Positions 3,001-18,396 of a stretch of DNA of 64,000 nt are shown piece after piece; within the stretch, counting starts at the first letter, position 1, and every line of letters starts with the position of its first letter. The stretch is from an uncultured Myxococcales bacterium (GTDB lineage: Bacteria; Myxococcota_A; Polyangia; Polyangiales; Polyangiaceae): positions 1 to 64,000 of the forward strand of contig CALMUT010000344.1 in NCBI GenBank assembly GCA_937872925.1, written 5' to 3'. The translations under genes were made by a program, and so were the position numbers. The notes under the pieces were generated by a model, which was not told the origin of the DNA, ran no database searches, and was given only the letters and a program-made list of their open reading frames with translations.

Positions 3001-3758
3001 GCACCGGTGCCCGCAAGCAGCGCGCCGGACGCAAAGTCCGCCATGCCGCCCGTCCAGTCATCCCAAAACGAAAGCGGCGCGACTGTCGGCTTGTCGGCGC
3101 CCTTCACGTTGGCCTGTTCCCCGGCTTTGACCTCTGCCCGCCCGCCTTTGCCAGTGACCGTCGCGGTGCCGCGCGCGACGTAGACAAGCACGCTGTCCCC
3201 GTCACGCCGCACGTCAAAGCCCGCCTCTGCGGCGGTGACTACGACTTCCCCGATGGTATGTGCCGTCGGCTTGCGTTCCGTGGGCGGCGCGTCCACGAAG
3301 TACTCGCCCTTTTCCAGGCTAACGGCGTCCGCCGCCAGCGAAAGTGCGCTCTGCTCGCGAATGAACAGGCGCGAGCCATCCGGCAGTCGCACCAGGGCGC
3401 GCGCACCAGCGCCGGTCGTCATGCGGGCGCTGTCCATTAGCGGCGTCCCGCTCACGGCCCGTGCGGGTCCTTCTCCAGTGTCCACGCTGACTTCGCCTGC
3501 TGCCAGCTCCAGACGCGCCTGAATGGCCAGCGCCTTGACCGGGGGCGGCTTGCGCGTCGCCACGTAGGCAATGACCGCGATGATCACTCCAAGCGCCCCG
3601 AGCGCGAGCGCGCCCCGAGTCAGGAGCTTCTTCAGGTCCGGGATTTTTTTCGCTGCGCTGACTGCCTTCACTTCGTCCACGGCTGCTCCGCTTTCTGGTT
3701 GCGCTCCGGGCGAAGGAGGGCGTCGCGCACCGGCTGCGTTGGGCCGGCGGCTCACCAT
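1..3758 (-). CDS. FecR + VIT + vWA + TPR membrane protein (3' end off window)
   Basis: Open from an ATG at 3758 to the window edge (over 1,250 codons, no stop), so the C terminus is missing. Residues 1-48 are a basic, Pro-rich cytoplasmic tail, 49-68 a single membrane helix, about 80-165 a FecR-like domain, about 265-390 a VIT domain and about 500-690 a von Willebrand A domain. An Ala/Pro/Glu-rich linker and TPR-like helical repeats follow from about residue 1000. The vWA metal site reads D508-T-S-A-A rather than DxSxS, so its third metal ligand is lost, while the Thr and second Asp motifs (GGATD, VGDG) remain. VIT/vWA proteins usually act as surface or periplasmic scaffolds. It lies 104 bases downstream of another vWA gene on the same strand. 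Domain calls are firm; the role is unknown. Confidence 0.85.
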   Translation of the reverse strand, partial: MVSRRPNAAGARRPPSPGAQPESGAAVDEVKAVSAAKKIPDLKKLLTRGALALGALGVIIAVIAYVATRKPPPVKALAIQARLELAAGEVSVDTGEGPARAVSGTPLMDSARMTTGAGARALVRLPDGSRLFIREQSALSLAADAVSLEKGEYFVDAPPTERKPTAHTIGEVVVTAAEAGFDVRRDGDSVLVYVARGTATVTGKGGRAEVKAGEQANVKGADKPTVAPLSFWDDWTGGMADFASGALLAGTGAGSIYGVDVGAAPGAPAQKLEVSRQSVRAVLREGLSETEVDQTFFNPGERGVEGWYWFTVPEGASVTGFALETNGVLVEGEFSERKEAAAQYGAAKASGHSPAILEWIDSRTYRARIYPVPGGGTRRVVLRYIELRPPVGSKLSYLYPMGAGNPVRIGEFSLSVDLGDAGAKMKIATLADARVENGGRRVTMRRSGYTPRADFQLEADLPSKRPPMTVARFSAGGESADYVLARYVPDVDWKAAKQTRGDVVVVVDTSAAGDEAAHQLKTAAAESILRALSGEDRFALVALDVRPTVLYPKDGLAKADDKEIEKALESLADHAVGGATDLAALFDVALGRLHGAEQPAVVYVGDGIATSGAMSGEQLVERLRRAIGTSRARLFSVGVGTDAHYSLLGELARAGGGISLRVDDAEQTTARALELAAAIKTPTITDLEIDLGAGLDEPFSSAAGKVSRGAEVVVLARTHHEIPRMVKVRGRLGGEKFEQEYEVKRDGSILSNFVPRLWAAEYVKRLLGSASGPDAERGRIVALGVEYGLMTPFTSILALESESAYMRMGIPRKRTNLRGVRLGALTDDEERRAASRHAGIPAASLPFGCSKLERMAGDEAPAEQGVATKSEPMAQGAPASPPPVEVQPGYDKNLEPSAVDDEVGAMAKEETPAAAAPTLAAPSEDPLAENEAPAPAAKAMPAPGLGRGAIGGKGSGGGLVERKRAYRPAPKRKIPSGLEKDDDTERSVTSELKQLAEKSGAEVALTTCSDASARPLAQRVLLWQKRVKAAGDAGDLIERYRAARAACELNDWRAERTFLELLQRKVTNEGAASILLAHFAGRPDVQRHVAKLILRRAVDVRLVAAVERTLFGGSVDWAAVDRELSAIEAVDRRIEKLREAIAKAPEDPNGGMRLVKLLVEAERKDEAVALGRRLRDQGLLTPGIARGLGDVLARAGHAEEAVRTYSEIVEFDPESVPSRRLLGDIYRGHAWYEPGYRQYRTITELDDTDPLG

Positions 3759-3862: not shown

Positions 3863-5332
3863 CTAGAATGCAAATTCATCCGCAGTGGATGCGTTCTTGC
3901 GGACCTGCGCGGCGGGTCGTGGTGCCGCGGCGCCCGCCGGTGCGTCTGCCGGCGGAGCTGCAAACCCTTCCGAAGCCTCACCGAGGGCACCGGATTGGTC
4001 GTCGAAGTCCGCTTTGAGTTTCTCCCGCGCTTGCGCTGGCGCCTGTGCCAACGCGGCCTGTCGCTGACGATTGACTTGATCCAAGGATCGCTTCAGGGCG
4101 CCGCGTGCCTCGCTGGTGCGGCCCGACGCGAACAAGCGGTTTGCTTCTTTCAGCGTAGCCGCCGTCTCGCTCCGTACCAGGCGGGTTTGCACAACGGGAT
4201 CGAGCTCGGCCACCTGACTCTCGTCCTCCGTCAACTGCAGCGCGAGACTGCCCGCGCAATTGCCCCGGCCGCCCAGGGCGAAGTCGTCGTAAGTCATCTT
4301 CACATCCGCCACCGGTCGCGCGCCCTGCGCGCCTTTGGCGATCGCCAGCTTGATCAACAGAGTCTTCTGCTCGCCAGCGGAGAAGGTTCCAAAGGGCACG
4401 AAGAGGCGATCGCCGTCTTGACGGAAAGTGCGGTCGAAGACGCGTTCCACCTTCACCCCTGGCGCCAACGCCAGTTCGACCTCGGTGTCTTTCGCCACGG
4501 TCTTGACCAAGCTATTGAGCTCGGCGTCGAATACCTCGGGTAGCTTCGCAGCGTTCTCTACGAAATGGTGCCGACCGTTGGACTCCAGCGCAAGCGCACT
4601 CATCACGCGCTCGTTGTACTCCACGTCCACGCCGATGGCGCTGATGCTGGCTCCCATACTGCGCACCCGAGCGCCAATGCTGCGGAACCCTTCCACGTTG
4701 CGCACTCCCGCGGTGGCCTCGCCGTCGCTGAGCAAGAGCACGCGGTCGACCATGCCGCTGCGCCGACGTAGTTGCTCCATGCCCGCGTCGATACCGCAAG
4801 AAATGCAGGTGTCTCCCCCCGCGCTGATGGCGGAAAGCGCCCGCAAAGCCCGATCCCGGGAGAAAGAATCGATGGTCGTGGACGGTACGATCGCGTCCGT
4901 TGTGGTGTTGTAGGTCACGACGCTGACCGCATCGCCGTCGCGCAGACGCCCCACCATGCCCCGCGCCGCGTCGAGGGCGTTCGACAGGCGACGTCCCTTC
5001 ATCGATCCGGAGCGATCAATCACGATGGACAAATTGAGGGGCGACGCAGCCGAGGTGGCCGCGTCCTTGTCCGCCGTCGCCGTCAGCAGCATGAAGGTTT
5101 CCCCGGGCCGCTCCGCCTGCAACGTGGGGTGGCCGAGGCGCCCCTCGAGCATGATGGTGCGACCGGCCGTGAAGGTGGCGCCGACCGCCGCCGGGGGATC
5201 CTGGGTTTCTGCGATCCCCACGGGGTCCGGGCTCAGCTCCGTGAGGGGCCGCTCCTTGGTCAAGGACCAGACGGTGACGCTCGAGAGCAGCATTCCGCAC
5301 AATGAGAGTAGTCCGACGCTCTTGACCTTCAT
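3863..5332 (-). CDS. Secreted or membrane-anchored vWA-domain protein
   Basis: 489 residues. The ATG at 5332 is chosen because it gives a signal/anchor sequence (MKVKSVGLLSLCGMLLSS) and has GAAAGGG upstream; the frame stays open 92 codons further up, but that stretch is poor in signals. A vWA domain spans about residues 98-270 with an intact MIDAS (D106-R-S-G-S110, then GGDT and LLSDGEA). A beta-rich segment follows, then a helical, Ala/Gln/Arg-rich C-terminal part from about 390 to 489. This resembles the YfbK-type vWA family, but the VIT domain is absent. The family binds metal-dependent protein ligands. It probably shares function with the following VIT/vWA gene on the same strand. No lipobox was seen. 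Confidence 0.82.
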   Translation of the reverse strand: MKVKSVGLLSLCGMLLSSVTVWSLTKERPLTELSPDPVGIAETQDPPAAVGATFTAGRTIMLEGRLGHPTLQAERPGETFMLLTATADKDAATSAASPLNLSIVIDRSGSMKGRRLSNALDAARGMVGRLRDGDAVSVVTYNTTTDAIVPSTTIDSFSRDRALRALSAISAGGDTCISCGIDAGMEQLRRRSGMVDRVLLLSDGEATAGVRNVEGFRSIGARVRSMGASISAIGVDVEYNERVMSALALESNGRHHFVENAAKLPEVFDAELNSLVKTVAKDTEVELALAPGVKVERVFDRTFRQDGDRLFVPFGTFSAGEQKTLLIKLAIAKGAQGARPVADVKMTYDDFALGGRGNCAGSLALQLTEDESQVAELDPVVQTRLVRSETAATLKEANRLFASGRTSEARGALKRSLDQVNRQRQAALAQAPAQAREKLKADFDDQSGALGEASEGFAAPPADAPAGAAAPRPAAQVRKNASTADEFAF

Positions 5333-7073: not shown

Positions 7074-8237
7074 TCAGCGCCGCCGAGGTTCAACGCGGAC
7101 TTGGCGTGCCATCTGCCGCTGCACGCGGCGATGCAACGAGCGGGGGCGCCGGGCGATCTCGCGGCGGATGTCTGCCATGGGGCGGTTGGGGATGCCGATA
7201 TGGCAGACGGGTGCGCCCGGTCGCACCACGGGCAACAGAGTCATGCCCAAAATGATGCCGGCGACGGGCGCCACCACCGTGGGACTGTCGTCCCGGAAGA
7301 ACGCATCGCAGACCGCGATGCGCTCGCCTTCATTGACCAGGTCTCCGGGGCGCGCGTGGAAGCGCAAAAGTCCGCCCGTGTGCGCCCGCACCCAGACGCT
7401 CTTCGTGATGGTGGTCTGGTACGCAGGCTCCTCGCGGCTGCCGTCGATCATGCCAAGCTCGATCAGCACATTGCGCACGCCGCGCACGCCGATCGCCACC
7501 GCGCCGGCCTCGATTTTTAGGGACTCGCCAGCTTCCAGCAAGATGGTCTTGCAACCACCCCCGCAAGCGACTTGCCGCAGGCTCCGATCGTCGCCTTTGC
7601 GGTCGACGATCGCTTCGCAACCGAACCAACGCGCCAGCTCTTCGAGCCCGGGCAAGGACAGGTCCGCGCGAACATGCGGGAAATTCGTTCGCCCCGCCGC
7701 AGCGGTGTGCAGGTCCAGCCCATAGTCGGATTTCAGCACGACCTCGCGATGGATCGCGTGCGCCAGGCGGAAAGCCAAGCTGCCCTTCGGATCCCCAGGG
7801 AAGCTGCGGTTCAAATCCCGGCGATCCGGCAGATAGCGGGTGTGGCGCTCGAATCCGAAGACGTTGACGACCGGCACCAAGATCAACGTGCCACGCAGCA
7901 GCTCGAGGTTGGAGAACATCAGCTCCCGGATCACACCGGTCCCGTTGAGTTCGTCGCCATGGACCGCGCCCGAGACAAAGACCGTGGGCCCTTTGCGGCG
8001 CCCGCGCATCACGCGCAGAGGCACGCTCACGGGCACGCCCATGCTGGTCTCGCTGACCTTCAGCGCGATGTCGCGAGTTTCACCCTTCTTGACCCGCTCG
8101 CCGGCGATAATAAAGGGGGGGACCTTCGGACTCAGGACGCGCCCCCGTTGCTCTCCGCGGTCTTTTTCTTCTTCTTGCGTGGACGACGATCTTCCGCCGG
8201 GATCAGCCCCTTGAGGGTGAGGTGCTTGCCGAAACAA
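7074..8237 (-). CDS. Succinylglutamate desuccinylase / aspartoacylase-family hydrolase
   Basis: Zinc-dependent deacylase/carboxypeptidase family (AstE/AspA, M14-like). The metal motif is GAVHGDELNG, followed by RRDLNRSFPG and GLDLHTA with the later zinc histidine. A C-terminal beta domain (about residues 285-345) has the biotinyl-like fold found in this family. The only ATG (8237) overlaps the upstream rimK-like gene by about 105 bases, and its first 35 residues look unlike the family. A non-ATG start near 8135, just after the rimK stop, would fit the family N terminus better. It is last in a protease-RimK-AspA set on the same strand. The likely role is to hydrolyse an acyl-amino-acid or peptide product made or trimmed by its neighbours (inference). 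Confidence 0.85.
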   Translation of the reverse strand: MFRQAPHPQGADPGGRSSSTQEEEKDRGEQRGRVLSPKVPPFIIAGERVKKGETRDIALKVSETSMGVPVSVPLRVMRGRRKGPTVFVSGAVHGDELNGTGVIRELMFSNLELLRGTLILVPVVNVFGFERHTRYLPDRRDLNRSFPGDPKGSLAFRLAHAIHREVVLKSDYGLDLHTAAAGRTNFPHVRADLSLPGLEELARWFGCEAIVDRKGDDRSLRQVACGGGCKTILLEAGESLKIEAGAVAIGVRGVRNVLIELGMIDGSREEPAYQTTITKSVWVRAHTGGLLRFHARPGDLVNEGERIAVCDAFFRDDSPTVVAPVAGIILGMTLLPVVRPGAPVCHIGIPNRPMADIRREIARRPRSLHRRVQRQMARQVRVEPRRR

Positions 8238-9331
8238 AGCACGACGTCGCTCAGCAGGATCTCTCTATCACCGCGGGGATTGGGGATCGTGACGCTGCCG
8301 CGCGTGATGCTCAGCACCTGCACGTCGCGCTCCCGCAACCCGGATTCCTTCAGGGTGCGGCCGCACAGCTCGCTGTCGGAAGTGACAGCAAACTCCGCAA
8401 CTCCGTAGCCGGACTTCAAGGTCAGGCGCTGCCGCAGGTCGAGCTCCGGGAACAAAACCTGCTCCTCTAGGTGCTCCATAATGGCGCCCGCAACGTCGAT
8501 CTTCGTGGCCGCTTCGATGCCCTCGAGCCCCGGGGATGAATTGACTTCCAAAATGCTTGGGCCGTCTTTGGTTTCGAGCATATCCACACCGGCTACCCGC
8601 AGGCCCATGATCTGGGCAGCGTGGATCGCGGTCCGCTCGTAGATCGGGTCGATGTTGACCGCTTCGGCACGACCGCCGCGGTGCACGTTGCTGCGGAACT
8701 CCTCGCCGACCGCAACCCGACGCATCGCCGCAACCACGCGATCGCCCACCACGAAGGCACGCATGTCGCGGCCTCGGCTCTCAGACACGAACTTCTGGAT
8801 CAGCACGTTCTGTTTGGCGCTCTGCAGCGTCTCGATGATGGCCTCGGCAACCTTCACGGTGTCTGCCAAGATCACACCAATGCCCTGAGTGCCCTCTAGC
8901 AACTTGATGATGACCGGGGCGCCGCCGACCCGCTCGATTGCTCCGAGCACGCTGGCGCGATCACGAACAAATGCGGTGGGAGGAATGCCGATGTTGTGGC
9001 GGCTCAAGATCTGCGTGCTGCGCAGCTTGTCCCGGGAGACGCTGATGGCCGTGGATGAGTTGAGGGTGAACACCCCCATCTGCTCGAACTGCCGCACAAC
9101 CGCCGTGCCGAACATGGTGATGGATGCGCCGATGCGCGGGATCACGGCGTCATAGTGGCTGAGCTCTTTGTTGCGCCAAAACAGATCCGGCTTGCCTTGC
9201 TCTAACCCCATGGCAAAGCGCAGCGTATTGAGCACTTTGACCTTGTGGCCACGCGCGAGTGCTGCCTCTCGCAATCGGCGCGTGCTGTAGGCACGCGGGC
9301 TTCGCGACAAAATGGCCATCTTCATTGTCAT
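8132..9331 (-). CDS. rimK: RimK-type ATP-grasp ligase fused to an RCK_C (TrkA-C) domain
   Basis: 399 residues. Residues about 1-95 are the RimK preATP-grasp domain and about 100-290 the ATP-grasp domain, with nucleotide-binding motifs (VIIKLLEGTQGIGV, QKFVSESRGRDMRAFVVG) and metal ligands in the GVDMLET and ILEVNSSPGLEG segments. Family members add glutamate to the C terminus of ribosomal protein S6 or to peptides. Unusually, residues about 300-380 look like a TrkA-C/RCK_C regulatory domain, followed by a short lysine-rich tail (RRPRKKKKKTAES). The start overlaps the upstream protease stop by ATGA. ATG 9325 is an alternative start. The substrate cannot be read from the sequence. Confidence 0.9.
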   Translation of the reverse strand: MTMKMAILSRSPRAYSTRRLREAALARGHKVKVLNTLRFAMGLEQGKPDLFWRNKELSHYDAVIPRIGASITMFGTAVVRQFEQMGVFTLNSSTAISVSRDKLRSTQILSRHNIGIPPTAFVRDRASVLGAIERVGGAPVIIKLLEGTQGIGVILADTVKVAEAIIETLQSAKQNVLIQKFVSESRGRDMRAFVVGDRVVAAMRRVAVGEEFRSNVHRGGRAEAVNIDPIYERTAIHAAQIMGLRVAGVDMLETKDGPSILEVNSSPGLEGIEAATKIDVAGAIMEHLEEQVLFPELDLRQRLTLKSGYGVAEFAVTSDSELCGRTLKESGLRERDVQVLSITRGSVTIPNPRGDREILLSDVVLCFGKHLTLKGLIPAEDRRPRKKKKKTAESNGGAS

Positions 9332-9807
9332 GTTGATTGCACTCGTTTCTTCTTCTTCTTCAACTTCTTCTTCGCGGTCTTTTTCTTGGGGCGACCGAGG
9401 CTGTAGCGCCGGCTGGTATCAATCACGAAGGCGTGTGATAGGGCCGACCGACCTATCAGCATCCGGAAGATCATCTTGGCGCGGCAAACCAGGGATAGTT
9501 CTATCTCGCGCTCGACGCCACCGATACGCACCTTGGCGACCACGAAGATCCGAGTTTCCGAAACTCCACTGGACGGGCGCACGCGTCCCCGCCGCGAAAC
9601 CGGCGCTTCCACGGTGACGCGGCGGTCCAGTTTGCGACGGTGCAGCCGCACATCGAAGCGGACGCGGTTGTCACCGACCTCTTGGATGTTCTCTACGTGC
9701 AGGGCGCTACTGCGCGCGCCCGTGTCCATTTTGGCCCGGAGCCGCATCACATTCCACTCGGGAATGTCGACGTACTCTGCCCAACCGATGACCAGCGGTT
9801 CGTTCAC
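9328..9807 (-). CDS. RimB-like retropepsin-fold protease (Zn_protease family)
   Basis: 159 residues from a GTG start. It belongs to the family long annotated as ATP-dependent zinc protease (PF05618), which has a retropepsin-like fold. The catalytic-type motif AKMDTGARSSALHVE is at about residues 25-39, and RMLIGRSAL follows near 115. The last 25 residues are almost all Lys (RPKKKTAKKKLKKKKKR), encoded by runs of AAG. Members commonly sit beside rimK and are thought to trim the added glutamates (family knowledge). Here the start codon of rimK overlaps its stop. It begins 60 bases after the redox operon on the same strand, so co-transcription with it is possible. Confidence 0.85.
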   Translation of the reverse strand: MNEPLVIGWAEYVDIPEWNVMRLRAKMDTGARSSALHVENIQEVGDNRVRFDVRLHRRKLDRRVTVEAPVSRRGRVRPSSGVSETRIFVVAKVRIGGVEREIELSLVCRAKMIFRMLIGRSALSHAFVIDTSRRYSLGRPKKKTAKKKLKKKKKRVQST

Positions 9808-9867: not shown

Positions 9868-11967
9868 TCAACGGGCCGGTCCGGCGCGCGGCTCCTGCGG
9901 CTCCTGCGGCCCGGGCGCCGCGCCGACGGCGTCGGGGGCGAGCGGCCGATGCACTCCAATGCTCTCCAGAAACGGCCAGGGCAGAAGCGTGCCGATCAGG
10001 ACGACCACGGCATCGACGTGCAACTCGGACTCGATGCCGGCGCGCCGCAGAGTGACGCGGCCTGGGTCGATACGAGTCACTTCCGTTTCGAAGCTTAGAT
10101 CCACCCTGCCCTGCTTCTGCGCCGCTCGGAGGGCAGCGACGTTGCGCGGTTTGCCCCGTCGGAACTCCGTGCCGCGGTACGCCACAGTCACATGGGTGCC
10201 CGGTTGGTGGCTCAGCGCCACGGCGGTCTCCAACGCCGAATCCCCAAGCCCGACCACGAGCACCCGCGCGCCCGAGAAGCTCTTGGCGTCCGAGATGCCG
10301 TAAAACACTTGATTCAGCGCGTCGTCCGCAATGGGCGCTGCCAGCCGCCGCGGTGTACCGCGTCGCCCGATCGCCAAGACCACCCGTCCACACCGCAGCG
10401 CGCTTTCGACGCCCTCGGGATCCGTCGCACGCCCGACGAAGGTGCCCGCCGCTTCGGGCGTGACGGCAACGACGCGTCGGTGCTCGCGGATCTCCAAAGC
10501 CTCCTTGCGCACGATGCGCAGCCACTTCGACAGCAATTCCTCCTTGGTCGCCTCCTCCAACCAGAGCTCACCGATGAGGGGTACATCCAAGGGTTGGTCG
10601 AAAACCAACTTGCCGCGAGGAAAGCTTTGGATGCTCGATGCGACGCTTCCCTGTTCCAGTACCAGCGCAGACAGGCCCAGGTTCTTCGCCTCGAGTGCCG
10701 CGGACAAACCCGCTGGACCCGCCCCGACGATCAGCACGTCGCAGTCCGTAGCTGCGCGCTTGCGTTTGCCCTTTGCCAGTTGCCGCGCCGCGCCACGCAC
10801 CGCGTGCGCCCCTTGATTGATGGCGTTCTTGATCAGCGGCATCCCAGTCAGATCCCCCGCCAAGAACAGCCCGGGCACCTCTACGCTCTGCAGCGCATCA
10901 TCGACTCGCGGTCGGTCTAGGATGGGCTCCCCGTCTCGCACAACGATCGAACCATTGGGGCACTTCTGTTCACAAAGCGTCAGTCCACAGCAATCATCGG
11001 GGCGTGCGACTTGCGCAATGAAAGAACGCATTTCAATGACGTTGTAGGGACAGGCGTCGACGCAGGCATTGCAACCCAAGCAGGTCGTCGCGTTGATTTG
11101 TGGCAGGCGTACCACTTGGGCCGGCCGCATCCCCTCTGGCGCGACGGCGCTGCGGCGTCGCGTGCGAAACCGCAGCTGCGCTTGCCGCGACGTCCACACC
11201 AAGGCGCCGCAGAAAAGGCCAAACAGCAACCACGACCCGCGCGCCGTCGGTGGTGCCGGGGGGGTTTGCTTCAACACCAGACGTGCCGCCTCCCAGGCGC
11301 CATCCCGGGGCACGCTCTCGGCACCCGCGCTGGCGGCGGTTTGGTGTTCGTCGAAGCAGAGCGTCGCTCCGGACGTCGCGCCGCCTGGCGAGAGGCATAC
11401 GAAGATCGCATCGCGTGGATCGGCCAGGGCGTGGCACTCGCTGCAGACTTTTGCGTCTATCGTCGCGACATGCACGGGCTTGTCGGCCGAAAACCCCGTC
11501 GCCACCTCCGAGCGCACGCTCCAACCGTTGCCGTAGCGCTCCGCGACGCCGCCGCTCAACAGCGCCACTCCTTGGTCGGAGCGATGACTGTCGTGACAGG
11601 TCACGCAGTTCATTTTTCCGGCGTTGCGCATCCGCTTGTGCCCTGCGCGGGTCGTGGGGTGAGCTCCGTGACATTGGGTGCATGCACCGGTGGGCTCGGC
11701 CTGCCCATGGCAGTCACTGCAGCCCAGCCCAGCCCGCGCATGGGGCCGGGAGAGCGCGCCGGGCGACCGAAGCGCGGCCGCGCCCTCGGTGGCGAAGATG
11801 CCGACCAGGCTCGCGACCGCCGCAACGGCAGCACCGACAAACAGCCCGCTCAGCCGCCGAACGTCACTGGGTTCATCGGCCGCGGGCGGACTGGCCTTCT
11901 GGGTCGGTTTCCCGTTGCTCAATAGCGACCCCAAACGCTCAACAGATGTACGGCCAAGAAGACGCAC
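9868..11967 (-). CDS. Tetraheme cytochrome c / [4Fe-4S] ferredoxin / FAD-NAD(P) oxidoreductase fusion
   Basis: About 699 residues. GTG 11967 overlaps the upstream gene by 49 bases; a TTG at 11922 overlapping its stop is an alternative. Order: membrane helix at 42-60; four CxxCH heme sites at 83, 96, 121 and 175; second helix at about 245-260; two [4Fe-4S] motifs (C296-x2-C-x2-C-x3-C and a C326...C336 group); a PGLFLAGDLTGMPLIKNA segment at 365-382; an FAD Rossmann motif GAGPAG at 415-420; and a second nucleotide-binding Rossmann motif (VVGLGDSALE). With both helices crossing, the hemes are periplasmic and the Fe-S and flavin parts cytoplasmic, so it could pass electrons from NAD(P)H across the membrane. 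The PGLFLAGD block normally lies at the C terminus of such flavoproteins but here precedes the FAD motif. Confidence 0.88.
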   Translation of the reverse strand: MRLLGRTSVERLGSLLSNGKPTQKASPPAADEPSDVRRLSGLFVGAAVAAVASLVGIFATEGAAALRSPGALSRPHARAGLGCSDCHGQAEPTGACTQCHGAHPTTRAGHKRMRNAGKMNCVTCHDSHRSDQGVALLSGGVAERYGNGWSVRSEVATGFSADKPVHVATIDAKVCSECHALADPRDAIFVCLSPGGATSGATLCFDEHQTAASAGAESVPRDGAWEAARLVLKQTPPAPPTARGSWLLFGLFCGALVWTSRQAQLRFRTRRRSAVAPEGMRPAQVVRLPQINATTCLGCNACVDACPYNVIEMRSFIAQVARPDDCCGLTLCEQKCPNGSIVVRDGEPILDRPRVDDALQSVEVPGLFLAGDLTGMPLIKNAINQGAHAVRGAARQLAKGKRKRAATDCDVLIVGAGPAGLSAALEAKNLGLSALVLEQGSVASSIQSFPRGKLVFDQPLDVPLIGELWLEEATKEELLSKWLRIVRKEALEIREHRRVVAVTPEAAGTFVGRATDPEGVESALRCGRVVLAIGRRGTPRRLAAPIADDALNQVFYGISDAKSFSGARVLVVGLGDSALETAVALSHQPGTHVTVAYRGTEFRRGKPRNVAALRAAQKQGRVDLSFETEVTRIDPGRVTLRRAGIESELHVDAVVVLIGTLLPWPFLESIGVHRPLAPDAVGAAPGPQEPQEPRAGPAR

Positions 11968-14222
11968 AAGAGACCAAGGGTCAGCACGTGGGCTGGCAAC
12001 ACGGCTCGCAGCACGAAGGTCAGGATCCGCCGGGCCGGAAGCGCACGGATCTCGACGACCGTGCGGGTCAGTTCCGCAATTTCCGTTGCATGGGCTGACG
12101 CCTTTTCACCCAGCATGTCGAAGAGCTGCTGGTTCAAGCGATCCTCTTCTTGACGCAGGGTGCGTCCAGACGCCGCCAATAGTAGCCCGCCCCAAGGGGC
12201 ACGGGCGTAGGGCAGGAGCACGCGGCGGACCAGCAGCTTGATAGCCTCGCTCTTGCCGCTAGTTGCCCGAAACAGACGATCCATTAGCCGCAACCGCTCA
12301 CGGGAGAAGTCTTCGGGTAGCAGGCCCTTTCGTTCCAAGCGGGTCAAAATCGGAGGCAGCAACTTGTAGGCAGCGTACCCCAGCACGCCCAGCAGGCTGC
12401 TGCACCAGAACACGGCGCCAACGTAGGTATGCGCTGACTTTGGTAGCGAGACCCCGGCGTGCAACGCCACCGCGCCGAGCGCTGCGAACCCGAGCCAGAC
12501 ATGCAACCGGAATGACGCGCGGGTCGTCATTGGCATCGGCAACGGGTCCGACGCTTCGGCGCGGGCGCCGCGCGTACGTTTCGGCATATTTCGGTAGCGA
12601 CGCTTCTGAACGCCGTAGACAAACAGCGCCAGGACCAGCCCAAGCGAAAGCCAGCCAAAGGCTAGCCCCATTCCGCTACTTGCCGACAGTTGACCCCCGG
12701 CGTGCAGCCCAGCGCCCATTCCGGTGACGCTCAGCCCAAAGAAGATCGGGAGCGGACGCAGCAGTCCAAAGGCTGCGCTCCGTTTCGTGGCCTTGTCTGC
12801 GGGCGCGGGCTCCCGACCGGGGAACAGCGCGAGCACTTCTGCAAAGTCGCGGGATGGATCCACCCGCAAGATGCTTCCCGTCGGACACGCCGCCACACAC
12901 GCCGGGCCGGCACGCTCCCGACACAGATCGCACTTCGTGGCCACCAGCGCGCTCGTGCCCACGCCGCCCTCCGCATTGCTCGCAGTCGGTGGAGCTGCGC
13001 CCTCGGCGCGTGGGGACATACGGATATTGTCCCAGGGGCACGCCTTGGCGCAGGCGCCGCAACCCGTGCACAGCGCCTCGCGGATGAATACCTCGCCACG
13101 GGGATCGCGCCCGATGGCGCCCGTGGGGCAGTCGATCATGCACGCGGGATTGTCACAATGCTGGCAGCTGTTGGGCACGAGCAAGCTACTGGGCGCTTCG
13201 GCCACTTGCAGCGCAGTAACAATCTTGTCGCCGCGGCGCACGAGCCGCGTCGCCCCGTGCACGTCCGCGCAAGCGCTCGAGCACTGACCGCAGCGCACGC
13301 AGCTATCCTGATCGATCACGAGCAGCGACCGCGCCACGTGCATGCGGTACAGATCGCCCAGCACGTGACTCGTCGCGTTCTTATTGCGCCCAGCGACCAA
13401 GTCGCGCTGCACGTCGTCACGCCCTTGTGCCACGCGACGCAGCCGGCCGAGCAGCGCCGGGCTGCGATCCACCGCGCTGCGCAGTGCGCCGCGGGGCAGC
13501 GCAAGCAGATGCACATTCCCCAGGGCCACCGCGGAACCATCATGGGGCTCGCCGCTCAACACCGCATCGTCACCAAGCACGTCGCCGCGACTCAAATACG
13601 CCGTGACGCGGGTGCGGCCTGCGTCTTCCACCTGCAGCTGGATCAGACCTGCAACGAGCACATAGGCCAAGTCCGCCGGCTCACCGGTTTGGTAGACGAA
13701 ATTGCCCCGCTCGACTTGCTTCCACTGCGCCGCATCGATCAACATGGCAAACTCGGCGTCTGGCAGGTCCGAGCCCAAGGCGGACGCGAAAAGCGCGTCA
13801 CGCGAGAGAGCGCGGCGCAATGAGCGCTGCTCGCGAGCGATCACATCTTCCGCGACACCTCCGCGCACCCTTGCCCGAGAGACCAACGCAAAAGGCACCT
13901 CGACGGCGCAGGCGTCTGTCTTGGCTTGGGCCCGGGACAGCCGCGTGGCTCCCGTCACCGTGGCTTCTTCGCCAAACAAGTCGCCGCGCAGAGCGCTGCG
14001 CAATGTGCTTACGCTGTCTTCGCCTCGGCGCACGGCGCGGAGCTGCACTTCGCCAGAAACGACCACAAAGAGAGCGTCGGCAGATTGTCCTTCTTCGTAG
14101 AAGGCTCCGCCGGCCTTGCAGTCAACGACGCGACTCGAAAGCGACAGATCCTGGCGCGCGCGTGCATCCAAATCGCGAAAGAACGGCGTCGCAAACGCCT
14201 GAGCCAGCGCCGCTTCGTTCAA
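11919..14222 (-). CDS. Two cNMP-binding-like domains + four-cluster ferredoxin + membrane domain
   Basis: 767 residues, ATG overlapping the upstream stop. Residues about 10-130 and 150-265 are two CRP-like cyclic-nucleotide-binding folds. Then come four cysteine sets typical of DmsB/HybA-like electron-transfer subunits: C308/311/314/318, C353/356/361/365, C385/388/391/395 and C431/434/442/446. The C-terminal 290 residues hold about five hydrophobic helices with histidines in or near them (GLHAGG, RLHVWLG, VALHAG, LPAHVL, LAVHLL), as in diheme b-type membrane subunits. The protein therefore combines ligand sensing with Fe-S and probably heme b electron transfer at the inner membrane. It most likely links the neighbouring cytochromes to each other or to quinone (inference). 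Confidence 0.88.
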   Translation of the reverse strand: MNEAALAQAFATPFFRDLDARARQDLSLSSRVVDCKAGGAFYEEGQSADALFVVVSGEVQLRAVRRGEDSVSTLRSALRGDLFGEEATVTGATRLSRAQAKTDACAVEVPFALVSRARVRGGVAEDVIAREQRSLRRALSRDALFASALGSDLPDAEFAMLIDAAQWKQVERGNFVYQTGEPADLAYVLVAGLIQLQVEDAGRTRVTAYLSRGDVLGDDAVLSGEPHDGSAVALGNVHLLALPRGALRSAVDRSPALLGRLRRVAQGRDDVQRDLVAGRNKNATSHVLGDLYRMHVARSLLVIDQDSCVRCGQCSSACADVHGATRLVRRGDKIVTALQVAEAPSSLLVPNSCQHCDNPACMIDCPTGAIGRDPRGEVFIREALCTGCGACAKACPWDNIRMSPRAEGAAPPTASNAEGGVGTSALVATKCDLCRERAGPACVAACPTGSILRVDPSRDFAEVLALFPGREPAPADKATKRSAAFGLLRPLPIFFGLSVTGMGAGLHAGGQLSASSGMGLAFGWLSLGLVLALFVYGVQKRRYRNMPKRTRGARAEASDPLPMPMTTRASFRLHVWLGFAALGAVALHAGVSLPKSAHTYVGAVFWCSSLLGVLGYAAYKLLPPILTRLERKGLLPEDFSRERLRLMDRLFRATSGKSEAIKLLVRRVLLPYARAPWGGLLLAASGRTLRQEEDRLNQQLFDMLGEKASAHATEIAELTRTVVEIRALPARRILTFVLRAVLPAHVLTLGLLCVFLAVHLLSVWGRY

Positions 14223-17200
14223 GGCAACTCCACACGAGCACGAGCGAGTTCGATGATCTCGAGTCGGTCCAGCGCGTCTGCGCTCATCAGCGGGCGCCCG
14301 GGGCGCTTCTTGGCTTCGTATTCGACAAAGGCACGCAACAAGAAGGGCGGAAAGGCTCGGAATAGCAGGCGGGCCTCGACGCTTTTGGCAGCGCCCGCAA
14401 GCGCCAGATCGTAGGTGAATGTCACGGGCTGTCCGGGAGCCAAGGAGCGTCGGTCGATGATGGCGTCCGGCGCCTTGAGCACGCCGCGGGATGCGTCGAG
14501 CGCGCCCACGGGGAAGTACGTCTCAAACAGCGCATCCTCCCCACTGAGGTTGCTGGTGCACTCGCCCGTGTCAATGTCGTAGCTACCGTCTGCGAAGCGA
14601 TCGGCACGCGTGCGATCTTGGCCCGGCAGCGCCGAACACGTACCGTCGGATTCGACGCGACCGATGCACACCACACAACGCAGGAATCCGTTTTGAAAAT
14701 TGATCAATCCCAAGCCGCGGAAACGCGTGCCGCCTCGGGTAGGGTTGGGTTGCCAGCGCGGCACATCGGGTCCGTCCGTCACGTCCGCGCCGAACAGTCC
14801 CTGCGGCCGCCCTTGGCCATCCAGGAAGCGGTCATCGGTATTCACCCGGAGAAACACCTTGTCCTTTAGGTCCTGGTCGGGTCGGTCGACGCGCCCGACT
14901 TCGTACAGCACGCGTCCGCTGGCGTCGCTCACCGTCAGATGCACCCAGAGCTCCCGCTCCTGACTGAATCCGGCGGGGACTCGATGCCCGGCACCAACGT
15001 TTTCCACAGTGACGGGCAGTGAAAGGCTCCGGCCGCTGGCCCGCGGCGGGCCCAAGCTGAGCTGCACTGAAGACGCGAGCAGCATCTTCGCGCGGCGGGT
15101 CACGGACTGCGGCATGGCAAACACGTCCGTCCAGTCGCCGCCCGCGAGCCCCTCGTCAAAGCTCGGGTCTAGGGGGATCTCAACGCCGCTGAAGTAGTGC
15201 AAACTCAGCGGTCGGGGCTTTTGAGATCCCGTCGCGGCGAGCCCAGTCGGATAGCTTCCCGGCGGGCGCGCGACAAAGCGTGTGCCCGGCGGGCAGGCGG
15301 TGGCGGTCGCACTGCCTGGGGTAGGCGCCGGCCCACTTTCGTTTGCTGCCTCTTGCACACAGACCCCCGGGTACTGGGTCATATGACAATCCTGACAGCT
15401 CGCGGCCTTGCGCCCCGCACGCTGTTCGAGCTCCGCCCATGCCGCCCACTCACTGTAGGCGTTGCGCAAGCGCTTGAAGTGCTCTCCGCGCTCACGAACG
15501 CCGACGACGTCCGTGCCGAACAAGCGCACGTCGTGACACGCGCCGCAGAAGTCGCTCGATTGCAGGTATGCGCGGGTCTCAGCATCGGGTCGGGCGTGCG
15601 CTCCCCCGGGCGCGCGGTCCCCGCGAAAGAACAGGTCCGGGTCGATGGCGTAGCCGCTGTTGCCAATGCCCACGCGGCCGCGGCTGTCCTCGGGACGCGC
15701 GTTGAAGCGTCGTCCAGTCGCCGCCGACACCCAGAACGTATTGCCAAGATCCGTCGCCGCGGTGCGCCCAGCGCCCGGCGCGTGGACTTGATGACAGAAG
15801 CTGCAGGAGATCCCTTCCAACGCGCGGTCCGTAAGCGCCTCGCGCAGGGTGGGATTGGCCCCCTGGCCCCGGGCGTTCCACGCCGGAACCGTGCTGCCCA
15901 AGTTGTCCGCGGGGGAGTGACAATTCACGCACCAATGCTCGCCGCCGGATCCCGTCAAGGACTGACCGCTCTGACGGTCGCGACATGCGGTGCTCGGGTC
16001 GGCCTTGCGCAATACGCCAGCGCCGTTGGGGCAGTCGAAGTCGCGCCCCACTTGTTCCTCGATCAACATCTCGAGGGATTGAAAGAGCGGACTCTTCACC
16101 GAGTGCGCCATCACCGATCGCCGCCACTCTCCAGCCTGCCGGGGGTGGCAACTCGCGCAGTCGCCGGAGAGCATCTTCGCGGCGACCAGCGGCTCGCGCT
16201 GTTTGAGAGGCGGGCGCTCGGCGGTCGTGCCGCGAGGGAGTCCCCACCAGAAAAGCGCGCCAGCGCCCAGTCCGAGCACGAGCGCGAGGGCGGTCATCCG
16301 GCGGGGGCCCGCCCCCCCCCCCAACGAGGCTGGTGGCGCAGGCGCAACGGGGGGTCTCGCCCCCGGGGGATCGGGATCCGAAGAAGAGGCGCGGGGCGCC
16401 TCTGCGCGCTTCTCAGCGACCGCCGGTGAAGCTTGCATTCGAGTCGGCTTCCCGGCAGCGCTCGCACCACTTTCGGTCACGCGGGTCAGCAGATCGAGCA
16501 TCTCAAGCGCGCTCGCTGGACGCTCCTGTGCGTCTGGATCCAGGCTGCGCAAACACAAAGACTGCAGTCCCGGAGGCAGGCTCTGGGCCAATTCAGGTGC
16601 GAAGGGAGCAGGCGGCCGACCGGCGCGCGCTTCGAGGGAAAGTCGCAATCCGCGGCCGCCGAAGGCATGCTCCCCGGAGAGCAAGCGATACAAGATCAGC
16701 CCCGTGACGTAGCGATTGGCAGCGTTGTTCCACGGACTCCCATCACTTTGCTCCGGGGGCGTCCATCGCGGCGAGGTCCGGCTAGACCGCCCGATCTTCG
16801 CTTGGTCCTGCGCGCCAACCAGAGCCAACACCAGGGCGTCTGCTGCGAGGTGCACGGCGTGGCCATCGACGGCGACGTCCCCCAAAGACAGCGCCCCGGG
16901 GAACAGCGCCTCACGTTCCGCAAAAGCGAGGGCGCGGAGCAAGTTCGTCGTGATGCCTAGGGCAGCTTCGAGGGGCAGCGCGCCGCCAGGCTCCAGGAGC
17001 GCGGTCAGGGTTGGCACGCCGGAAGCACGCTCCAGCCAGAGCTGCGACCCGTGCTGTCCACCCCGACGGAATCGCCCAATGCCCTCGGCGCCCAGCTCCA
17101 ACAACCGCCGCCACGCGGGGCGATCGCTTTCGTCTAACAGCCAGAGTTCACGGTTGCCGTCCAGGCGATACCGCCGGGCACGCCCAAGCTCCGGTAGCGC

Positions 17201-17242
17201 AGGACCCGCGCTGATCCCCGGAATGACGGGCGCATCCGTCAC
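14219..17242 (-). CDS. Pseudokinase fused to a membrane-anchored five-heme cytochrome c
   Basis: 1,007 residues, ATG overlapping the kinase stop. Residues about 20-255 follow a protein-kinase fold (WTPPEQ for the APE region, GLILYRLLSGEHAFGG for helix F), but the catalytic HRDxKxxN site is replaced by PGALSLGDVAVDG and no DFG or ATP lysine is seen, so it should be inactive. A Pro/Ala linker leads to a membrane helix at about 317-336. The periplasmic part has five CxxCH sites near residues 359 (CASCH), 436 (CVNCH), 478 (CSFCH), 565 (CGACH) and 614 (CQDCH). A beta-rich C-terminal domain contains the multiheme-family motif NVGAGHRVPAGF. A run of 11 G (coding strand) lies just before the helix. 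Kinase pocket and heme domain sit on opposite sides of the membrane. Confidence 0.87.
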   Translation of the reverse strand: MTDAPVIPGISAGPALPELGRARRYRLDGNRELWLLDESDRPAWRRLLELGAEGIGRFRRGGQHGSQLWLERASGVPTLTALLEPGGALPLEAALGITTNLLRALAFAEREALFPGALSLGDVAVDGHAVHLAADALVLALVGAQDQAKIGRSSRTSPRWTPPEQSDGSPWNNAANRYVTGLILYRLLSGEHAFGGRGLRLSLEARAGRPPAPFAPELAQSLPPGLQSLCLRSLDPDAQERPASALEMLDLLTRVTESGASAAGKPTRMQASPAVAEKRAEAPRASSSDPDPPGARPPVAPAPPASLGGGAGPRRMTALALVLGLGAGALFWWGLPRGTTAERPPLKQREPLVAAKMLSGDCASCHPRQAGEWRRSVMAHSVKSPLFQSLEMLIEEQVGRDFDCPNGAGVLRKADPSTACRDRQSGQSLTGSGGEHWCVNCHSPADNLGSTVPAWNARGQGANPTLREALTDRALEGISCSFCHQVHAPGAGRTAATDLGNTFWVSAATGRRFNARPEDSRGRVGIGNSGYAIDPDLFFRGDRAPGGAHARPDAETRAYLQSSDFCGACHDVRLFGTDVVGVRERGEHFKRLRNAYSEWAAWAELEQRAGRKAASCQDCHMTQYPGVCVQEAANESGPAPTPGSATATACPPGTRFVARPPGSYPTGLAATGSQKPRPLSLHYFSGVEIPLDPSFDEGLAGGDWTDVFAMPQSVTRRAKMLLASSVQLSLGPPRASGRSLSLPVTVENVGAGHRVPAGFSQERELWVHLTVSDASGRVLYEVGRVDRPDQDLKDKVFLRVNTDDRFLDGQGRPQGLFGADVTDGPDVPRWQPNPTRGGTRFRGLGLINFQNGFLRCVVCIGRVESDGTCSALPGQDRTRADRFADGSYDIDTGECTSNLSGEDALFETYFPVGALDASRGVLKAPDAIIDRRSLAPGQPVTFTYDLALAGAAKSVEARLLFRAFPPFLLRAFVEYEAKKRPGRPLMSADALDRLEIIELARARVELP
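16312..16322. repeat. 11-base C homopolymer (poly-G on the coding strand) inside a gene
   Basis: The tract codes for Gly residues just before the membrane helix of the pseudokinase-cytochrome protein. A slip of one base would end the pseudokinase part out of frame. An ATG at 16297, 15 bases beyond the tract, sits exactly at the start of the membrane helix and could in principle start a separate cytochrome polypeptide. Tracts this long are prone to replication slippage and to sequencing error. Confidence 0.9.
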
Positions 17243-18396
17243 CGCAGACCGCCGCCCGCCGCCGCGGACGCGGACGGCGTTTCCGGGCGGGAGCCGTCGC
17301 TAGTTCCGGCACGCACAAAATACGTGACCACTGCGGCGAAGAGCGACAGTGCCACGATCACCATGACGCCGACCTTCGGGCTGAGTTCTTTTTGAGCAGT
17401 GGCTCTCTCAACCAGCGCGAGGGTGTCAGCGCGCATAACGGGCTTCTTGCCTGCGGGCGCGGCAGCTTCGGGTTTTTCCGCGGCGCGGGGTGCTTCAGCT
17501 TCGGGGAGCGGTTCGGTGACTGGCGCGCGTTTCGAAATGGGCGCGGTCGTGCCGCTGGCCCGGGATCGCGGCGCCCGCGTCAAGGACGGGGCAAAGGGAT
17601 CGAGGTCGTGCAGCACATCGCGGGCAGACCCGGGGCGGTCGTCCGGAGACTTCTCAAGCAACTCGAGAACCAAGCGCTCCACGCCCCGCGGCAGGCCGGC
17701 GCGCACGGCCTCGGGAAGATCCGGCGGCTTCTGCGTGCACTGCGCGTTCAGGAGTTCCCGGGGAGACGCACTTTCAAAGGGCGGGCTGCCCGCCAACATC
17801 TCGTACAGCACGAGTCCGAGGCAATACAAATCACTGCGCGCATCTACGCCCGTTGCGTCAATCTGCTCCGGGCTCATGTACTGCAGCGTGCCCACGCTAT
17901 GGGTCGTCGTGCCGCTGAGAGCTTGCAGCACCTTGGCGATGCCAAAATCCATGACTTTCACCGTGCCGTCATCGAGCACCATGACGTTCTCGGGTTTCAA
18001 GTCCCGGTGCACGATGGGCGGCTGTTGCCGATGTGCTGCGGCCAAGGCGGACGCAATTTGCACCGTGATTCCGACGGCATCTTCCCAACTCAGAGCGGCG
18101 CTGTCCGTGAGTACCGCGCGCAGCGTGCGGCCCTCCAAGAACTCCAGCGCCATCACCAGTTGGTCGTCGCTCTCCGTGCAGGCGAGGCAACGCACGATGT
18201 TGGGATGATCGAGGTGGGCCAGGATCGTCATCTCGTTCAAGAACAGCCGGCGCCCTTCTTCCGACTTGGAAAACTCCGGGCGCAGCACCTTCAGTGCCAC
18301 CCGGCGCTTGCTCAGGCGCTCTTCGGCTTCGTAGACCTTGCCCATGCCGCCCTCGCCGACCAAGCCACGGACTAGGTACTCACCGATGCGCTCCAT
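17239..18396 (-). CDS. Hanks-type Ser/Thr protein kinase with C-terminal membrane helix
   Basis: 385 residues from the ATG at 18396, preceded by AAGGTGAGG. A frame extension to 18498 exists but covers a likely promoter, so the shorter start is preferred. All catalytic parts are present: glycine loop GEGGMG at 14-19, ATP lysine K36, HRDLKPEN at 130-137, DFG at 150-152 and SPE at 175-177. A Pro/Ala-rich linker leads to one membrane helix at about residues 340-362, with almost nothing after it, so there is no external sensor domain. It is first in the redox operon, and its stop overlaps the next start. It may phosphorylate or pair with the pseudokinase fused to the cytochrome (inference). Confidence 0.92.
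   Translation of the reverse strand: MERIGEYLVRGLVGEGGMGKVYEAEERLSKRRVALKVLRPEFSKSEEGRRLFLNEMTILAHLDHPNIVRCLACTESDDQLVMALEFLEGRTLRAVLTDSAALSWEDAVGITVQIASALAAAHRQQPPIVHRDLKPENVMVLDDGTVKVMDFGIAKVLQALSGTTTHSVGTLQYMSPEQIDATGVDARSDLYCLGLVLYEMLAGSPPFESASPRELLNAQCTQKPPDLPEAVRAGLPRGVERLVLELLEKSPDDRPGSARDVLHDLDPFAPSLTRAPRSRASGTTAPISKRAPVTEPLPEAEAPRAAEKPEAAAPAGKKPVMRADTLALVERATAQKELSPKVGVMVIVALSLFAAVVTYFVRAGTSDGSRPETPSASAAAGGGLR

Follow-up and report, generated by a model that had tools for sequence, protein, structure and literature searches.

A Ser/Thr kinase and a pseudokinase-cytochrome fusion inherited together with a predicted NAD(P)H-to-periplasm redox module in Myxococcota

Introduction

What is a Ser/Thr kinase doing among genes for hemes, iron-sulfur (Fe-S) clusters and a flavin? 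The question is raised by a 64,000-nt stretch of DNA from an uncultured Myxococcales bacterium of the Polyangiaceae (NCBI GenBank assembly GCA_937872925.1, contig CALMUT010000344.1, positions 1 to 64,000; hereafter the window), in which four minus-strand genes at 9868-18396 encode a kinase (protein 1), a pseudokinase fused to a pentaheme cytochrome c (protein 2), a protein combining two cyclic nucleotide monophosphate (cNMP)-binding domains with Fe-S motifs and a membrane domain (protein 3), and a tetraheme/Fe-S/flavin protein (protein 4). Together with a fifth gene, for a von Willebrand A (VWA) protein, they may form a kinase-coupled inner-membrane conduit leading electrons from NAD(P)H to periplasmic cytochromes, a reading to which we give a probability of roughly 55%. 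It builds on the gene content, the cofactor motifs, the fold of the pseudokinase, the homology of the membrane domain of protein 3 to diheme-b proteins of porin-cytochrome cluster (PCC) type, the conserved gene order and the co-inheritance of the genes, all of which are established below.

Gene order and co-inheritance

The four open reading frames (ORFs) are chained by 4-base overlaps, namely 17239-17242 (GTGA) between the kinase and pseudokinase-cytochrome genes, 14219-14222 (TTGA) between the latter and the cNMP/Fe-S gene, and 11919-11922 (TTGA) between the cNMP/Fe-S and flavin genes. With a start of the flavin gene at 11922 the series continues, and this start suits it better than the alternative at 11967. 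A preliminary description, made from the sequence alone, had reported such a chain of four genes and the contents of their products; the ORFs and overlaps were found as claimed, and the contents were borne out by Pfam matches, heme and Fe-S motifs and catalytic motifs. It had missed two invariant H-x13-H motifs, the permuted arrangement within the flavin domain, and the fifth gene. The hemes and metal-site cysteines are invariant among 24-26 homologues, truncated ones aside, and the cofactor motifs are therefore not the product of chance.

The pentaheme gene (E<1e-190) is present in 22 of 379 Myxococcota genomes, and the same 22 hold proteins 3 and 4. Another genome (G378), which is 86% complete, has only protein 4, on a 4-kb contig, and the VWA gene. 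At every assembled locus the redox triad (proteins 2, 3 and 4) is colinear, with one gene intervening in L123; homologues that never keep this order, named in the preliminary description as what would speak against it, are not what was found. The kinase gene lies directly upstream in most loci, the exceptions being divergent with the VWA gene (L116, L117), beside the VWA gene (L123) or downstream (L108), and one genome (G365) has kept a kinase orthologue though it is unlinked. The kinase orthologue occurs in all 22 module genomes versus none of 30 sampled genomes without the module, each of which gave about 57 to 370 candidate kinases at first look, with 87 or 64 of them at most being scored per genome. 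Moreover, in same-genus pairs with and without the module (g4, g9, g50), the kinase follows the module. With the order conserved and the kinase distributed in this way, the link between the redox genes and phosphorylation that had been suggested from the window is real.

The VWA gene behaves similarly, being found in 22/22 module genomes versus 9/357 others. When all neighbours were clustered, five families were recovered in 18-21 genus-level loci, the kinase and pseudokinase falling into one cluster, and the next family in 7 loci, mostly of Labilithrix. Genes at the homologous loci were called with a home-made gene finder that misses some starts and genes, e.g. P0004 in G291 and the G007 kinase, for which genome searches served as the correction. 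The survey outside Myxococcota was a single pattern scan, covering genome contigs and the plasmid set, which does not prove absence elsewhere.

The kinase and the pseudokinase-cytochrome fusion

Protein 1 matches Pkinase (E=1e-55) and carries the motifs GEGGMG, VALK, HRDLKPEN, DFG and PEQ, the catalytic ones being invariant among 21 homologues. With the Gly loop, the VAIK-type Lys, HRD and DFG all present, it is predicted to be a catalytically active kinase, anchored by one C-terminal transmembrane (TM) helix that is followed by a short tail, predicted to be periplasmic. It shares its full set of catalytic motifs with PknB-type Ser/Thr kinases, whose fold is also that of the protein 2 pseudokinase, but unlike them it has no PASTA or other sensor domain, and its partner is a pseudokinase-cytochrome fusion. 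At one locus (L108, 5479-7398) the module kinase is 639 aa long and has a long additional C-terminal region past the TM helix.

The N-terminal region of protein 2 aligns with the module's own kinases (hhalign probability 99.7, E=1.3e-25), and a structure model of it (pLDDT 74) matched PknB-type kinases in Foldseek (E=2.7e-10). Of 21 homologues, 20 lack the catalytic Lys, HRD and DFG, and the remaining one has a lone DFG string of uncertain register; the P-P-E-Q end of the activation loop and helix F are retained in many. This region is a pseudokinase, with a predicted kinase fold devoid of these three catalytic elements.

Five CXXCH motifs are located after the single TM helix of protein 2 (mean of 0.01 in shuffled sequences). 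This receptor-like fusion, in which one TM helix joins the pseudokinase to the cytochrome, brings up the alternative that the redox chain is an input: the oxidation state of the periplasmic hemes would be passed to the pseudokinase, from there to the kinase and on as a phosphorylation signal, NAD(P)H setting the resting potential only. Such a receptor would suit a kinase that has no sensor domain of its own beyond a short tail, and a module to which neither a terminal reductase nor a porin is linked. However, nine c hemes, six Fe-S clusters, two b hemes and a flavin exceed the needs of a sensor, and relatives form part of what look like respiratory conduits, equipped with porins and large multihemes; we consider such a receptor unlikely. 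We give somewhat less than even odds to a further reading, in which a Ser/Thr kinase signalling unit is built into the transmembrane electron-transfer complex itself, with the periplasmic heme redox state and cytoplasmic phosphorylation coupled through the cytochrome-fused pseudokinase; phosphorylation would then gate the electron flow or be gated by it.

The pentaheme domain is homologous to the pentaheme cytochrome c552 5ze8 (hmmsearch E=1.3e-24 for the heme region, a second matching stretch falling in the beta domain that follows) and more weakly to MccSep, MccA and NrfA-type chains. Both the five-heme core and the following beta domain of 5ze8 align with protein 2; 5ze8, though, is a free cytochrome, whereas protein 2 adds the N-terminal pseudokinase and eight non-heme cysteines (404/420, 628/650, 856/859/869/895) that are absent from the free relatives in the alignment, and for which disulfides would be the simplest reading. 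These homologies also favour another explanation, in which the pentaheme is the catalytic end of a dedicated periplasmic reductase (e.g. of iron, or of a nitrogen or sulfur oxyanion) and the kinase a minor accessory. In Nitratiruptor and Shinella, free pentaheme relatives adjoin genes for iron uptake (FTR1, imelysin), but these iron-locus relatives are just 23-26% identical. Furthermore, all five heme sites of protein 2 are ordinary CXXCH, and a substrate site was not demonstrated. A dedicated reductase appears decidedly improbable, and an iron-uptake role based on the FTR1 neighbours of the distant pentahemes was kept merely as a rival.

As a separate observation, a free pentaheme cytochrome at another locus (L149, 1289-5070) adjoins a VWA protein that is 27% identical to that of the module, a hint that the pentaheme-VWA association could be older than that with the kinase.

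The Fe-S, cytochrome b and flavin proteins

Protein 3 contains two cNMP domains (PF00027), 16 Fe-S cysteines and five predicted TM helices; its Fe-S region matches PF13247 (E=2e-11) and is fused N-terminal to the membrane domain. In cNMP domain A the cassette Glu and Arg are retained in the window and in nearly all homologues, and the window's own genome encodes 11 class III cyclase domains. A cyclic nucleotide is a plausible, though unproved, ligand.

Both H-x13-H motifs of the membrane domain are invariant and lie about 171 residues apart in homologues, and the chance of at least two such motifs in the shuffled membrane domain of the window is 0.007. In an hhalign profile comparison, the domain matched 21 diheme-b inner-membrane proteins from PCC-like loci of Acidobacteria, Gemmatimonadetes, Myxococcota, Sphingobium and Emticicia with E=3.3e-18, versus E values of 0.1 to 0.9 for 18 unrelated multi-TM control proteins. 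We therefore predict a diheme cytochrome b. For two refinements of the motif in PCC3/PCC4 proteins the picture is mixed: a W precedes the TM5 His (WX3H) in many homologues, not in the window, and only GXXG of SGXXG is retained in protein 3. FHA-type relatives (see below) carry WX3HX13H on both helices.

Protein 4 has four CXXCH motifs (mean of 0.014 in shuffled sequences), two [4Fe-4S] motifs and a domain binding flavin adenine dinucleotide (FAD) and NAD(P) that resembles thioredoxin reductase (TrxR) and YpdA. Because the TrxR-type C-terminal FAD motif precedes the Rossmann fold, the flavin domain is circularly permuted; a fusion protein of Sphingobium has the same flavin parts in normal order. 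The bacillithiol disulfide reductase Bdr requires a redox Cys in its FAD loop. Protein 4 has the FAD and NAD(P) Rossmann domains in common with YpdA/Bdr and TrxR-like flavoproteins, but it differs from them in being permuted, in its fusion to Fe-S clusters and hemes, and in the FAD loop, where no redox Cys was found: the loop reads GAGPAG in the window and GxGPAG in all homologues.

A second relative of protein 4, with Fe-S and flavin parts and free of hemes, is encoded elsewhere in the window's own genome (L142, 8139-9464; G000 contig C1), where it adjoins a short six-heme ORF near the contig end; this is perhaps a separate PCC-like locus. Dependence of the module on a separate PCC3-like conduit was considered and is not favoured; most module genomes have only one protein-4-type match (E<=1e-40, with no more than three candidates scored per genome).

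Table 1. Coordinates of the module genes and of their domains in the window
Feature	Coordinates	Strand	Remarks
Protein 1, active-type Ser/Thr kinase	17239..18396	-	385 aa from ATG 18396; Pfam Pkinase, catalytic motifs
Protein 2, pseudokinase - TM - pentaheme cytochrome c - beta domain	14219..17242	-	1007 aa
Pseudokinase domain, protein 2	16451..17200	-	hhalign to module kinases; predicted fold
Five c-type heme motifs, protein 2	15383..16159	-	residues 362, 438, 480, 566, 616
Protein 3, 2 x cNMP-binding domain - 4 x [4Fe-4S] - predicted diheme cytochrome b domain	11919..14222	-	767 aa
cNMP domain A, protein 3	13878..14189	-	phosphate-binding cassette with conserved Glu and Arg
cNMP domain B, protein 3	13443..13820	-	cassette degenerate in the window
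Four [4Fe-4S] motifs, protein 3	12858..13325	-	Fer4_11 (pfam13247) type
Five-TM domain, protein 3	11922..12785	-	H-x13-H at 574/588 and 745/759; two b hemes predicted
Protein 4, TM - periplasmic tetraheme - TM - 2 x [4Fe-4S] - permuted FAD/NAD(P) domain	9868..11922	-	684 aa (699 aa with GTG 11967 start); topology predicted
Four c-type heme motifs, protein 4	11428..11745	-	
C-terminal-type FAD motif, protein 4	10795..10911	-	PGLFLAGDLTGMPLIKNAINQG; ahead of the Rossmann fold
FAD and NAD(P) Rossmann domains, protein 4	9949..10746	-	GAGPAG, GLGDSA; YpdA/TrxR-like
Fifth module gene, signal/anchor and VWA domain	3863..5332	-	489 aa; invariant TCxxC; predicted periplasmic

Relationship to porin-cytochrome clusters

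The combination had been presented as one matching no recognised pathway. This did not hold for proteins 3 and 4, which are related to the inner-membrane unit of PCC3/PCC4 type, and whose relatives elsewhere carry cNMP and FHA domains. PCC3 and PCC4 are putative porin-cytochrome clusters (He et al. 2017; PMC5566968), in which 5-TM inner-membrane proteins with two HX13H motifs are predicted to bind two b hemes, a pfam13247 Fe-S protein lies upstream of the membrane protein in PCC4 subgroup II, and the PCC4 multihemes have 4, 5 and 10 hemes (PMC5566968). The module resembles them in its 5-TM protein with two HX13H motifs, the adjoining pfam13247-type Fe-S part, the 4- and 5-heme proteins and the extra redox genes. 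It differs in that the Fe-S and membrane parts form one protein with two cNMP domains, in having the pentaheme-pseudokinase fusion, the dedicated kinase and the VWA gene, and in having no porin, decaheme or extracellular multiheme. Indeed, no outer-membrane beta-barrel porin was found among the conserved neighbours of the module loci, nor any 10-heme cytochrome at those loci. Since the porin and the large multihemes are absent, the module is not classed as a member of PCC3/PCC4; the best reading is that it derives from a PCC-type unit and is like the inner half of such conduits. Identity with the PCC3 and PCC4 families, the comparison set containing no named sequence of either, rests on common anatomy and neighbours.

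The same relatives raise the alternative of a flow in the reverse direction: electrons from the periplasm would come in via the cytochromes and, driven by the membrane potential across the b hemes, reduce cytoplasmic NAD(P)+. Electron uptake has been proposed for PCC3/PCC4 in iron oxidisers (PMC5566968); however, the direction is untested even for PCC3 (PMC12442390), and the module has no linked entry point in the outer membrane. Reverse flow seems quite improbable.

Elsewhere in Myxococcota, proteins 3 and 4 have distant homologues, which adjoin octaheme cytochromes and, in L126 and L128, beta-barrel-like proteins that matched no Pfam family; where tested, their multiheme-flavin proteins have three or four FHA domains. 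These FHA/cNMP systems (Myxococcota L124-L128 and L133; Sphingobium plasmids, L144) have both core proteins in common with the module, i.e. one with two cNMP domains and four Fe-S clusters (with or without the diheme b part) and one joining a multiheme, Fe-S clusters and FAD/NAD(P) domains. Unlike the module, they have one to four FHA or FHA-like domains, heptahemes, octahemes, beta-barrel-like proteins in two of the loci, and no kinase or pseudokinase. Three products encoded in a row in Sphingobium are a fusion of the form flavin-cNMP-cNMP-Fe-S, a diheme-b protein of 296 aa, and a multiheme whose YscD domain is FHA-like. Phospho-reading and nucleotide domains would thus have been wired into PCC-type units repeatedly, as the FHA and cNMP domains of these relatives indicate, the kinase-pseudokinase form being the variant found here. 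A published account of the combination was not found in the open-access papers searched, which yielded PCC3/PCC4 but no description that includes a kinase, a pseudokinase or cNMP domains; PCC4 cNMP/flavin architectures may stand in the supplements of He et al., which lay outside the search.

Two further details of these relatives were recorded. L124, L125, L126, L128 and L133 encode giant proteins (1079-1360 aa), each chain of which combines FHA-like repeats and a permuted flavin domain with Fe-S clusters and 6-7 hemes. The PCC-like cluster of L144 (10876-16051), whose fusion protein comprises flavin, two cNMP and four Fe-S parts, recurs on 11 other Sphingobium plasmids (~0.9-1.3 Mb); L144 was the one read in detail.

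Proposed mechanism and its weighing

The proposed conduit would start at the FAD of protein 4, reduced by NAD(P)H. From there electrons would move through [4Fe-4S] clusters, two in protein 4 and then four in protein 3, whose two b hemes would take them across the membrane. On the periplasmic side, the protein 4 tetraheme and the protein 2 pentaheme would pass them on to a periplasmic acceptor. The dedicated kinase may dock on the cytoplasmic pseudokinase tail of protein 2 and phosphorylate the complex, which, jointly with a nucleotide bound at cNMP domain A, may switch the flow, with the VWA protein as a partner or scaffold on the periplasmic side. From the TM helices and the location of the c hemes we infer a topology with the flavin and Fe-S clusters inside and the c hemes outside, which supports the placement given in the preliminary description; the order of electron transfer, its direction (export), the substrate, gating by a cyclic nucleotide, the phosphorylation target, the nucleotide ligand and the role of the VWA protein are likewise put forward as inferred.

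Several points weigh against this proposal. Electron flow, complex formation and phosphorylation are proposed from sequence and not from direct evidence, and the direction of electrons could be the reverse of the one proposed. For the association of kinase and module, Fisher p=3.7e-15 with relatedness ignored; this value overstates independence because the 22 genomes are related, and co-inheritance does not tell which way control runs. In cNMP domain B an Asp replaces the Glu and, in the window, a His replaces the Arg. Finally, the cytochrome part of protein 2 gave a structure model too poor for a fold search (pLDDT 38).

The regulation of multiheme conduits is usually viewed at the level of expression. 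A dedicated kinase that is gained and lost with a transmembrane redox chain, and paired with a cytochrome-fused pseudokinase, suggests that electron flow is controlled or sensed on the spot, at the post-translational level. Moreover, the diheme-b and NAD(P)-flavin unit of the putative PCC3/PCC4 clusters is a reusable one, recurring in the company of signalling domains (cNMP, FHA, kinase), and its inner partner is indicated to be NAD(P)H, not quinone alone.

The fifth gene and its surroundings

The VWA protein recurs beside the module with its invariant TCxxC. An invariant TCISCG occupies the place where VWA domains usually carry the threonine of the metal ion-dependent adhesion site (MIDAS), which places a CxxC pair amid redox genes. 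In the window's genus, unrelated genes lie between the VWA gene and the other four; in the window these are RimB, RimK and AstE/AspA-like genes together with some of the opposite strand. The minus-strand genes at 7074-9807 encode a RimB-like retropepsin, a RimK ATP-grasp protein that ends in a TrkA_C tail, and a deacylase of the AstE/AspA family; the RimB-like and RimK genes hold the same place in the other species of the genus (L104). The RimB/RimK genes (8132-9807) were rejected as module members, being found at that place only in the window's genus. On its other side, the VWA gene adjoins a minus-strand gene (3-3680) for a 1226-aa protein with apparent VWA-like and FecR-like parts by eye, and in two genera, g9 and g22 (L105, L155), the VWA gene likewise has relatives of this protein at its side.

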